In this document: positions 10,823 to 60,406 of the stretch, in pieces
How the letters are laid out: every line of letters starts with the position of its first letter
Position numbering within the stretch: position 1 is the first letter of the stretch
Assembly: GCA_016870115.1 (NCBI GenBank)
Contig: VGCH01000004.1
Location: 124,001 to 188,000 of the forward strand
DNA from: Alphaproteobacteria bacterium
GTDB lineage: Bacteria; Pseudomonadota; Alphaproteobacteria; Reyranellales; Reyranellaceae
Direction: 5' to 3'
DNA: 64,000 nucleotides
The notes under the pieces: generated by a model
The model's input: the letters and a program-made list of their open reading frames with translations, nothing else
The model's database searches: none
Told to the model about the DNA's origin: nothing
Made by a program: the position numbers and the translations under genes

Positions 10823-10911
10823 CGTCGTTTCCTTGATGAGTGCGCGCGGGACTGTAGTCGCCCGCCGCCGCCTCTCACCATGGGGAAAAGAACGCGCGCC
10901 CGGCGGCCGCC

Positions 10912-10940
10912 TTCAAAATGCCCGGCGAAAGGCCTATATT
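10912..10940 (+). promoter_or_regulatory. Candidate sigma-70 promoter of ssrA
   Basis: TTCAAA (10912-10917) and TATATT (10935-10940) are separated by 17 bases. The first transcribed bases would be near 10947, just before the acceptor part of the permuted tmRNA. Position and spacing are good; the -35 element is a 4/6 match. Confidence 0.5.
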
Positions 10941-10946
10941 GGCGAT

Positions 10947-11232
10947 GTCGGGAAACCGACTATGGCGATAAACGCCGCGTGGCATAAGCGTTTCGGACCC
11001 GGGGGCGGTACCCGGCGCCTCCACCATTCCTCGCACCGGTCCGCCGGCGCGATCGAGGGGGCGAAATAGGATCGACGAGCGTGGTAAAGGCGCGGTTTTT
11101 GCTCGGTATGGTTCCGCCGTGACGGGCCACACACAAGTGCCAACGATAACGACGTTGCACTCGCTGCTGCCGCCTAACAAGCGGACGTAAGCGCGGTTTC
11201 GGGAGGGCACCGGGCAACAGAAGCCCTCCCAC
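10947..11232 (+). ncRNA. ssrA: Two-piece (circularly permuted) tmRNA
   Basis: Ribosome-rescue RNA. As in other alphaproteobacteria the acceptor piece comes first: a CCGGG/CCCGG T-stem (10999-11003, 11011-11015), the acceptor strand CGCCTCC (11016-11022) and ACCA to 11026. About 30 bases of intervening sequence follow (11027-11056), removed in family members. The coding piece begins GGGGGCG at 11057, pairing with the acceptor strand as a 7-bp stem whose third pair is G-U, the alanine identity element. The tag frame at 11139-11177 reads ANDNDVALAAAA then TAA. The T-loop reads GGCGGTA rather than TTCGA-like. A GGGAGGGC...GCCCTCCC hairpin (11201-11230) closes the coding piece or terminates transcription. 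The ends are approximate. This element fills most of the gap between thyX and sspB. Confidence 0.93.
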
Positions 11233-11309
11233 TTTCCTTCCATCGACATGGGCCGGCGCGGCCGTTGACTCTGGCTGGAGCCAAGCCGATGCTCGATCCA
11301 GGATCAAAA

Positions 11310-52597: not shown

Positions 52598-52795
52598 CCC
52601 TCTGTCCGGAGACCTGAAAGATTCGCCGAGCCCGCAGGTCCGGCTTACTTCGTCGGTGGGCGATCGAGCCGCAGCCCGATGCCACTTTCCAGAGACCCAA
52701 TTCCCCCGCGGTCCGTTTGCCTGAGAGTTTCCGGGGCCGGTTGCTCCTTCGGCGGCACGCCAGCCCGGGGCCGCGCGCTCTCTCCCACGGGGGCT
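52598..52795 (-). promoter_or_regulatory. Tandem glycine riboswitch upstream of gcvT
   Basis: Read on the minus strand, aptamer 1 shows GGGAGAGA (about 52790), GCCGCCGAAGGAGCAA and AAACTCTCAGGCAAA. Aptamer 2 shows TCTGGAAAGTGGC (about 52693), CCGACGAAG and AATCTTTCAGGT ending with GGACAGAGG (about 52600). These are the standard glycine aptamer core motifs in tandem with a short linker. It should raise gcv expression when glycine is high. The 8-base AGGTCTCC of aptamer 2 (52615-52608) is exactly complementary to GGAGACCT over the gcvT ribosome site (52553-52546), suggesting translational control. The rest of the gap up to 53059 holds two divergent promoter regions and no gene that I can support. 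Confidence 0.95.
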
Positions 52796-52809
52796 TTGTG
52801 GGCGGGCGG

Positions 52810-57720: not shown

Positions 57721-58679
57721 TGGCGGTCTACACCGAGGTCGGCGAGGCCGAGCTGGCGGCGTTCCTCGCCGAATACGACATCGGCGCGCCGGAAGCGCTG
57801 AAGGGCGTGGCCGAGGGCGTCGAGAACTCGAACTACCTGCTGACCACGACCCGTGGCCAATATTTCCTGACGCTCTACGAAAAGCGCGTCGATCCGGCCG
57901 ACTTGCCCTTCTTTCTCGGCCTGCTCGACCATCTCGCCGCGCGCGGCATCGTGTGCCCGCGCCCGATCCACGGTCGCGACGGCAGCGCGCTGCGCCAACT
58001 CGCGGGTCGCCCCGCCTCCATCACGACCTTCTTGCACGGCCTCTCGCCACGCCGGCCCGAGACGCGGCATTGCGCGGCCATCGGCACGGCGCTCGCACGG
58101 CTGCACGAGGCGGGCGGGGACTTCGCACCGCACCGCGCCAACGCGCTGTCGGTCGCGGGTTGGCGGCCGCTCTTCGAACAATCCCGCGCCGACGCCGACG
58201 GAGTCGCGCCCGGGCTCGCGGCGGAGCTGGCGGGCGAACTCGCGCTGCTGGAGCGCGACTGGCCGCGCGGACTGCCGTCCGGTGTCATCCATGCCGATCT
58301 CTTCCCGGACAATGTGCTGTTCCGGGGACCCGAGCTCTCCGGCCTGATCGACTTCTATTTCGCCTGCAACGATTCGCTCGCCTACGATCTCGCGGTCTGC
58401 CTTAACGCCTGGTGCTTCGAGCCTGACAGATCCTGCAATGTTACCAAGGCGCGCGCGCTGATCACGGCCTACGACCAGGTGCGTCCGCTCTCGCGCGGAG
58501 AGCGTGAAGCGCTGCCGCTGCTGGCGCGGGGCGCGGCGCTGCGCTTTCTGCTGACGCGGCTTTACGACTGGATCAACACACCGGCCACCGCGCTGGTGAA
58601 GCGCAAGGATCCGCTGGAGTACCTCGCGAAGTTGCGCTTCCACCGCAACGTCGTGTCGCTCGGCGACTACGGCCTGTGA
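57720..58679 (+). CDS. thrB: Homoserine kinase, type II
   Basis: Phosphorylates homoserine in threonine synthesis; 319 residues with the choline/aminoglycoside kinase fold. The catalytic loop is [14 protein letters not shown], followed by [10 protein letters not shown] for metal binding. The N terminus [21 protein letters not shown] is the alphaproteobacterial ThrB form, not the GHMP type of E. coli. Start ATG overlaps ispH stop, and its own stop overlaps rnhA. Confidence 0.96.
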
Positions 58680-59119
58680 GCGCGCTCCCCAGTGTCGAGG
58701 CCTTCACGGACGGCGCCTGCCGGGGCAACCCGGGGCCGGGCGGCTGGGCGGCCCTCTTGCGCATCGGCGAGCGCGAGCGCGAGCTCTCGGGCGGCGATCC
58801 CGCAACCACCAACAATCGCATGGAGCTGATGGCCGCGATCGCCGCTCTCGAGGCGCTGAAGCGGCCCTGCGCCGTGCGGCTGGTCACCGACAGCACCTAT
58901 GTGCGCGACGGCATCACCCGCTGGGTCATCGGCTGGAAGCGCAACGGCTGGCGCACCGCCGATCGCAAGCCGGTAAAGAATGTCGACCTGTGGCAGCGCC
59001 TCGACGCGGCCCGCGCGGGCCATACGATCGACTGGCAATGGGTGAAGGGCCATAGCGGCCACCCCGAAAACGAGCGCGTGGATGCGCTCGCGCGGGCGGA
59101 GATCGAACGCCTGCCGTGA
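58676..59119 (+). CDS. rnhA: Ribonuclease HI
   Basis: Degrades RNA of RNA-DNA hybrids, 147 residues. The acidic residues of the active site are in [26 protein letters not shown] and VTDSTYV, with the last Asp in [18 protein letters not shown] contains the His. A GTG start overlaps the thrB stop (GTGA). End of the ispH-thrB-rnhA operon. Confidence 0.97.
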
Positions 59120-59183: not shown

Positions 59184-59666
59184 TCAGAGACTCTTGAGGA
59201 CGTGCTCGGCCGTCGACACCTCGAAGGCGCCCGGCTTCTCGACATGGAGCTGGGTGATCACCCCGTTCTCGACGACCATGGCGTAGCGCTGGCTGCGCTT
59301 GCCCAGGCCGAACTTCGAACCGTCCATCGTGAGGCCCATGGCCTCGCTGAACTCGGCGTTGCCATCGCCCATCATCAGGATCCGGTCACCGACCTTCTGA
59401 TCCCGGCCCCACGCGCCCATCACGAACGCGTCGTTCACCGAAATGCAGGCGATCGTATCGACACCCTTGGCCTTCAAAGCGTCCGCGTTGGCCAGAAACC
59501 CTGGCACATGCTTGGCGCTTCAAGTGGGGGTGAACGCCCCCGGCAGCGCGAACGCCACCACCTTCTTGCCCGAGGCGAACAACTCTTCCGTCGTCATCGC
59601 CTTCGGACCCTCGGCCCCCAGCATCCGCAGCGTCGCGGACGGGACCTTGTCACCGACCTTAGCCAT
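59184..59666 (-). CDS. Peroxiredoxin (Prx5 type), probable selenoprotein with in-frame TGA
   Basis: The family sequence runs MAKVGDKVPSATL ... VVAFALPGAFTPT, then TGA (59522-59520), then SAKHVPGFLANADALK to the normal C terminus at 59184. This gives 160 residues with the TGA as codon 49. In Prx5/AhpE-like peroxiredoxins the motif is GAFTPTCS, so TGA exactly replaces the peroxidatic Cys codon. Both halves are intact and in frame. A SECIS-like hairpin follows the TGA. Selenocysteine is therefore the best reading; a TGC-to-TGA mutation is the alternative. The enzyme would reduce hydroperoxides with thiol donors. Start ATG at 59666 has GGGAG upstream. Confidence 0.85.
59476..59522 (-). promoter_or_regulatory. 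Candidate bacterial SECIS element
   Basis: On the minus strand, starting within the TGA codon, GAAGCG (59521-59516) pairs with CGCTTT (59481-59476) with one G-U pair. Inside, GCCAG (59505-59501) pairs with CTGGC (59495-59491) around a GGTTT loop. The loop starts 19 bases after the TGA, close to the 18 of E. coli fdhF, whose loop also begins with GG (GGTCT). Confidence 0.7.
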
Positions 59667-59806: not shown

Positions 59807-60406
59807 ATGACCGGCTCCCTTTCCCCCGCGGCCGGACTTGTCGGCCGCTTCCTCGTGGCCGCGCCGTCGATGCCCGACGAGCGCTTCCGCAAGAGCGTGA
59901 TCCTGTTGTGCCAGCACGACGAGGATGGCGCGCTGGGGCTGATCGTGAACAACAGCGTCGACGATCTGGCCCTCGCCCAGGTTTTCAAGCAGCTCGGCAT
60001 CGAGGGCGCGCGGGCGGAGTCGGACCGGCCGGTCCTGTTCGGCGGCCCGGTCCAGACCGAACGCGGCATGGTCCTGCACAGCGAGGAGTATCGCCGCGAC
60101 GGCACGCTGCCGGTCGCGGGCGGCCTCGCCCTCACCGCCTCGCTCGAGGTGCTGCGCGACATGGCCGACGGACGCGGACCGGCGCGCGCCTGGCTGGCGC
60201 TGGGTCACGCCGGGTGGGGCTCCGGCCAGCTCGAGCGCGAACTACAGGACAACGCCTGGCTGGTGGTCGATGGCGATCCCGAGCTGGTGTTCGACGGCGA
60301 TCTCGACGGCAAGTGGCAGCGCGCGCTCGACCGGCTGGGCGGCGGCGGGCCCGAGCGCCGGTCCTTCGACCCGGCGCTCTACTCCCACCAATCCGGGCGG
60401 GCCTGA
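59807..60406 (+). CDS. YqgE/AlgH family protein
   Basis: A 199-residue protein of the YqgE/AlgH family (DUF179). LVGRFLVAAPSMPDERFRKSVILLCQHDEDGALGLIVNNS, VLFGGPVQTERGMVLHS and ARAWLALGHAGWGSGQLERELQDNAWL are the conserved blocks. Biochemical function remains uncertain. The ATG at 59807 has GAGGA upstream. It is divergent from the peroxiredoxin gene (140 bases between starts). Confidence 0.93.
   Translation: MTGSLSPAAGLVGRFLVAAPSMPDERFRKSVILLCQHDEDGALGLIVNNSVDDLALAQVFKQLGIEGARAESDRPVLFGGPVQTERGMVLHSEEYRRDGTLPVAGGLALTASLEVLRDMADGRGPARAWLALGHAGWGSGQLERELQDNAWLVVDGDPELVFDGDLDGKWQRALDRLGGGGPERRSFDPALYSHQSGRA

Follow-up and report, generated by a model that had tools for sequence, protein, structure and literature searches.

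A candidate selenocysteine-containing peroxiredoxin of the Prx5 type in an alphaproteobacterial family

Peroxiredoxins containing selenocysteine (Sec) are known (Sohling 2001), and reviews list the bacterial ones as COG1225 or PF00578 (AhpC-TSA type) with a TxxU motif. For Sec-decoding alphaproteobacteria a 2006 survey gave FdhA as the only selenoprotein (PMC1794560), and a 2025 paper describes three selenoproteins in one alphaproteobacterium (PMC12013277). In the open-access literature we found no Prx5-type or COG0678 bacterial selenoprotein, an absence that is not proof of novelty, and in titles and abstracts nothing that ties Reyranella or Enhydrobacter to selenoproteins. The DNA analysed here is a stretch of 64,000 nucleotides, referred to as the window, from an alphaproteobacterium. 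Its first-pass annotation had proposed a probable selenoprotein of the peroxiredoxin family and had noted that Sec peroxiredoxins exist in other bacteria.

The gene had been placed at the right coordinates with its strand unstated; it lies on the minus strand (Table 1). Reading the TGA at codon 49 as U gives a single protein of 160 residues, MAKVGDK...GAFTPT-U49-SAKHVPGF...HVLKSL-stop, and this codon is the sole interruption of the peroxiredoxin frame. The Pfam family Redoxin (PF08534) spans residues 3-157 with an E-value of 4.7e-36 and the two halves are therefore one domain, bearing out the earlier description of two in-frame halves parted only by a TGA at the catalytic Cys. The Redoxin domain combined with a PxxxTxxC/U active site, here PGAFTPTU, assigns the protein to Prx5/PrxII. 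Membership in the COG1225/PrxQ-BCP selenoprotein peroxiredoxins was considered and rejected, as the best match is not BCP/AhpC-TSA (124 bits for PF08534 vs 36 bits, 6e-9, for PF00578). Solved relatives, with E-values from 3.5e-51 to 3e-34, are the 1-Cys peroxiredoxin 5k2i (3.5e-51), whose peroxidatic Cys aligns with U49, 1tp9, which we take to be poplar PrxII, and human Prx5 (1h4o). The window protein and the aligned copies also have Cys74, 25 residues past U49, presumably a resolving Cys as in plant PrxII chemistry. Mechanical ORF calling breaks the gene into 59777-59520 and 59507-59184, just as had been expected of ordinary annotation, and since no NCBIfam selenoprotein model matches the window peroxiredoxin above its cut-off, routine annotation is likely to split it or to label it a pseudogene. 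Elsewhere the window holds a permuted alphaproteobacterial tmRNA (10908-11268, plus strand) and tandem glycine riboswitch aptamers (52600-52797, minus strand).

Table 1. Features of the peroxiredoxin locus, in window coordinates.
Feature	Coordinates	Strand	Evidence
Prx5/PrxII-type peroxiredoxin, 160 aa with predicted Sec49	59184..59666	minus	translation; PF08534 4.7e-36; PDB homologues 5k2i, 1tp9, human Prx5
Terminal stop TGA of the peroxiredoxin gene	59186-59184	minus	translation
In-frame TGA, predicted Sec49, peroxidatic Cys codon	59520..59522	minus	distinct copies in the same column: 22 with TGA, 37 Cys copies with TGT/TGC
Frozen 11-codon stretch 3' of the TGA (putative SECIS region)	59487..59519	minus	synonymous-difference fractions in Sec copies
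SECIS-like hairpin UG-[U]-GCCAG-GGUUU-CUGGC-CA	59489..59508	minus	bulged U 59506, loop 59500-59496; spacing and shape as in fdnG
Gene taken to be of the yqgE/AlgH family (by recognition), divergent, syntenic marker	59807..60406	plus	ORF list
Presumed ribonuclease HI gene (rnhA, by sequence recognition), convergent neighbour, context only	58676..59119	plus	ORF list

A peroxiredoxin homologue is present in 52 of the 61 genomes searched. TGA copies occur in 15 genomes, the window genome included, which belong to five genera of one family, presumably the Reyranellaceae; the carriers comprise the isolates Enhydrobacter aerosaccus ATCC 27094 and Vineibacter terrae as well as Reyranella sp., and in the family copies the TGA is always codon 49, with no other stop. 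Aligning Prx5 homologues, as had been advised, revealed the Cys/Sec pair at exactly this column (22 TGA, 21 TGT and 16 TGC among distinct copies). We also scanned 84,980 species with the pattern F-T-P-x-TGA-xxx-H-x-P-G and obtained 25 matching stretches, 23 of them peroxiredoxins, almost all within one family; L088 and L093 lack a peroxiredoxin frame and were discarded as chance matches. All tested genomes of the scan matches contain selB except that of L099, which also lacks the hairpin and whose TGA may be a sequencing or assembly error. A one-base error of this kind might be suspected in the window gene too, as TGC and TGA differ by a single base, the window genome is a draft of 59 contigs and L099 may be just such a case. 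The same TGA, however, recurs in independent isolates and metagenome assemblies, and the codons downstream of it are systematically unlike those of Cys copies, so that we regard the probability of an error as practically negligible. Within the family selB is found in nearly every genome, including those with Cys copies only, and thus does not discriminate between the two states. A Rokuibacteriota assembly contains a further Prx5-type peroxiredoxin with a TGA (L085), with selB in the genome and a 6-bp hairpin of its own, possibly an independent occurrence outside the alphaproteobacteria.

The window genome (G000; 3.56 Mb, 59 contigs, 100% complete) contains all four genes that the first-pass annotation had named as a check. 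Profile searches detected selB (443.8 bits, cut-off 242) and selA (2.2e-168), selC is a tRNA-Sec with anticodon TCA (UCA), and selD scores over its cut-off, the SelD domain being fused behind a pyridine-nucleotide oxidoreductase domain. This fusion (L075:3615-5990, minus strand) has, in addition, a sub-threshold match to the model 'fusion_not_SelD'. On one strand of contig C19 the order is fdnG-fdnH-fdnI-fdhE-selA-selB, followed by a repeat-protein ORF, which we take to be a TPR protein, and then selC. The formate dehydrogenase-N gene fdnG itself has an in-frame TGA (ETQARI-U-HGPTVASLAP); it lies directly upstream of fdnHI-fdhE-selA-selB (L077/L112, G000:C19 near 12830), and a similar SECIS-like element is found 3' of the fdnG TGA in ten family genomes. 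Two other redoxin genes of this genome also contain an in-frame TGA. The second redoxin, L073 (G000:C39:16890-18234), reads WASW-U-GCR and scores 255.7 bits against NCBIfam NF041054 WAxxUGC_long, below the cut-off of 300; every one of the 14 family genomes with a homologue has the TGA. The third, L072 (G000:C9:97995-99480), reads FFRGHW-U-PYC (UxxC, PF00578), and in six further genomes of the family its close homologues have at least one TGA each, counted with the codon unaligned and with some of the stops terminal.

In the RNA downstream of UGA 49 the apical loop GGUUU lies 19 nt past the UGA and is closed by GCCAG/CUGGC, confirming the loop and spacing reported at first pass. The weight that had been placed on this fold proved too great, as the hairpin is conserved in Sec copies but is thermodynamically ordinary and on its own weak evidence. 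In single-sequence folding the bare hairpin has z = -0.19 vs dinucleotide shuffles; the window apical hairpin has -6.7 kcal/mol, and of the codon positions in these genes 23% have a model hairpin at least as stable as -5.4 kcal/mol. Among synonymous recodings, 4-5% yield a hairpin that equals the real one in stability. Being invariant, it gives no covariation. Three features do exceed chance: the TGA is conserved, the synonymous sites are frozen and the architecture recurs in fdnG. The 18 distinct Sec copies hardly vary in the codons AGC GCC AAG CAT GTG CCA GGT TTT CTG GCC; their synonymous-difference fractions are 0.00-0.11 at codons +1 to +10 and 0.21 at +11. For the block +0 to +7 the fraction is 0.048 in Sec copies vs 0.38 in Cys copies and for +8 to +15 it is 0.14 vs 0.35, the values elsewhere in Sec copies being 0.21-0.56. 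In Cys copies CCA accounts for 1% of Pro codons, and TTT (6.5%) and GGT (13%) are rare as well; the Ser codon is AGC in Sec copies vs TCN in Cys copies.

The window element has 13 nt between the UGA and the bulged U, followed by 5 bp and a loop that starts with G, an architecture with a chance rate of 0.23% of window positions. The fdnG SECIS of the same genome, GG-[bulged U]-GGCCA-GUC-UGGCC-CC, likewise combines 13 nt, a bulged U, 5 bp and a G-first loop, although primary sequence and loop size differ (GUC vs GGUUU). A geometry close to that of E. coli fdhF had been claimed originally; this holds in part, since the bulged U and the G-first loop resemble the fdhF SECIS, but fdnG is the better match. 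Comparison with a bacterial SECIS model, also suggested at first pass, turned out favourably in geometry, in a region conserved at the nucleotide level in Sec copies: the bSECIS model allows a loop of 3-9 nt, an upper stem of 4-16 bp with G in the first two loop positions, a distance of 16-37 nt from the UGA and an MFE <= -7.5 kcal/mol (PMC13188914), and the 5-nt loop, 5-bp stem, leading GG and 19 nt of the window hairpin are all within the limits. The energy cut-off is reached only if it is applied to the whole stem-loop (-10.7 to -19.2 kcal/mol for the whole hairpin region in standard copies), which is our reading of its scope; applied to the apical stem alone, nearly all copies fail. A scan of the window at Rfam gathering thresholds gave no SECIS family match. 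Two family copies in selB-bearing genomes, L071 and L084, keep the TGA and continue with CCC GGG TTC GTG GCC without the standard hairpin, perhaps because their SECIS is of a second type or is decaying; their downstream sequence is close to that of TGT copies.

Among Sec copies dN/dS is 0.10 upstream of the TGA and 0.24 past codon +11, the latter value indicating that the part behind the TGA is under selection as protein; both halves are under purifying selection. dS in the same copies is 0.22 in the SECIS stretch vs about 0.8-1.2 elsewhere. We consider it exceedingly unlikely that a TGC-to-TGA nonsense mutation has killed a Cys peroxiredoxin and left a pseudogene: the gene is split by ORF calling and several relatives hold Cys paralogues, as a pseudogene would allow, but 15 genomes share the TGA in an otherwise undamaged frame, and the purifying selection on both halves and the synonymous freeze 3' of the TGA speak against decay. 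Readthrough of the TGA by a near-cognate tRNA (Trp, Cys or Arg), or an altered code, would likewise hold the downstream half under selection. Here the true stop of the gene is itself TGA, tRNA-Sec and SelB are present, the TGAs stand at Cys positions of redox enzymes and the SECIS-like element is conserved, all of which makes decoding other than as Sec very unlikely.

The gene thus almost certainly encodes, as far as sequence can tell, a Prx5/PrxII-type (atypical 2-Cys or 1-Cys) peroxiredoxin with Sec as the peroxidatic residue. This reading is indicated by the complete sel machinery, the frozen RNA signal and the many relatives with TGA, and is further backed by the matching fdnG element, the selection on the downstream half and the other TGA-containing redoxins of the family; machinery, Cys/Sec column and conserved RNA region likewise lend support to the probable selenoprotein of the first-pass annotation. 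Translation with Sec, enzyme activity and resolving partner are predictions. SelB with Sec-tRNA(Sec) would bind the hairpin, which begins 11 nt past the UGA, and codon 49 would be decoded as Sec in place of termination by release factor 2. The Sec49 selenolate might then reduce H2O2 or organic peroxides, being converted to a selenenic acid, which could be resolved either by the conserved Cys74, at the 25-residue distance known from plant PrxII, or by glutathione/glutaredoxin.

The place next to yqgE is common to the window copy, many Reyranella Cys copies and the TGA copies L084, L090 and L091, and several genomes hold a Sec and a Cys copy together, often in tandem. In a tree computed with the active codon and the SECIS stretch removed, the Reyranella Cys copies (TGT/TGC) nest inside the Sec clade, suggesting reversion from Sec to Cys. 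A tree that confines the Sec sequences to one exclusive clade is rejected by the AU test (p = 0.0026), but one with a single reversion is not (p = 0.43). By parsimony 3 changes suffice, where shuffled labels need 12 or more. The best fit is a single gain with one or two later reversions from Sec to Cys. That Sec arose several times is unlikely, since the Sec copies have the frozen string in common, but the count could be blurred by gene conversion between copies in tandem, and several internal nodes are weakly supported. TGC relatives lacking a conserved hairpin, originally named as a finding that would speak against a selenoprotein, do exist, but they appear as reversions inside the Sec clade, and 15 genomes keep the TGA. 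We lean towards a history in which the yqgE locus exchanged Cys for Sec a single time and afterwards reverted once or twice, with every state still living, including a divergent second SECIS (L071, L084) that resembles the codons fixed in TGT copies. If true, the locus would provide a natural series in which the reasons for gain and loss of Sec could be measured. The Sec and Cys orthologues at this one locus offer a direct test of the benefit of Sec to these bacteria.

The gene appears to be a genuine selenoprotein gene that is new in its Prx5 subfamily and lineage, Sec peroxiredoxins as such being already known. It would enlarge a group once listed with formate dehydrogenase only (PMC1794560) by a Prx5-type selenoenzyme and a set of four or more TGA-containing redox genes, in a gene class likely to be overlooked by routine annotation. 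The bacterial Sec peroxiredoxins of the COG1225/PF00578 type, e.g. that of Eubacterium acidaminophilum, also have Sec for the peroxidatic Cys in a TxxU motif (T-P-T-U in the window protein) and a SECIS within the coding region, as in the window gene; the window protein differs from them in matching PF08534 best and in its alphaproteobacterial host. The WAxxUGC_long (NF041054) and Prx-like UxxC selenoproteins are likewise Trx-fold redox proteins with a TGA in G000, yet their subfamilies and active-site motifs are different from those of the Prx5-type gene. The bacterial 1-Cys protein 5k2i and the plant and human PrxII/Prx5 proteins 1tp9 and 1h4o belong to the same sequence family as the window protein but use Cys where it has U49, and at the position equivalent to Cys74 5k2i has Ser, whereas the window protein keeps the Cys.
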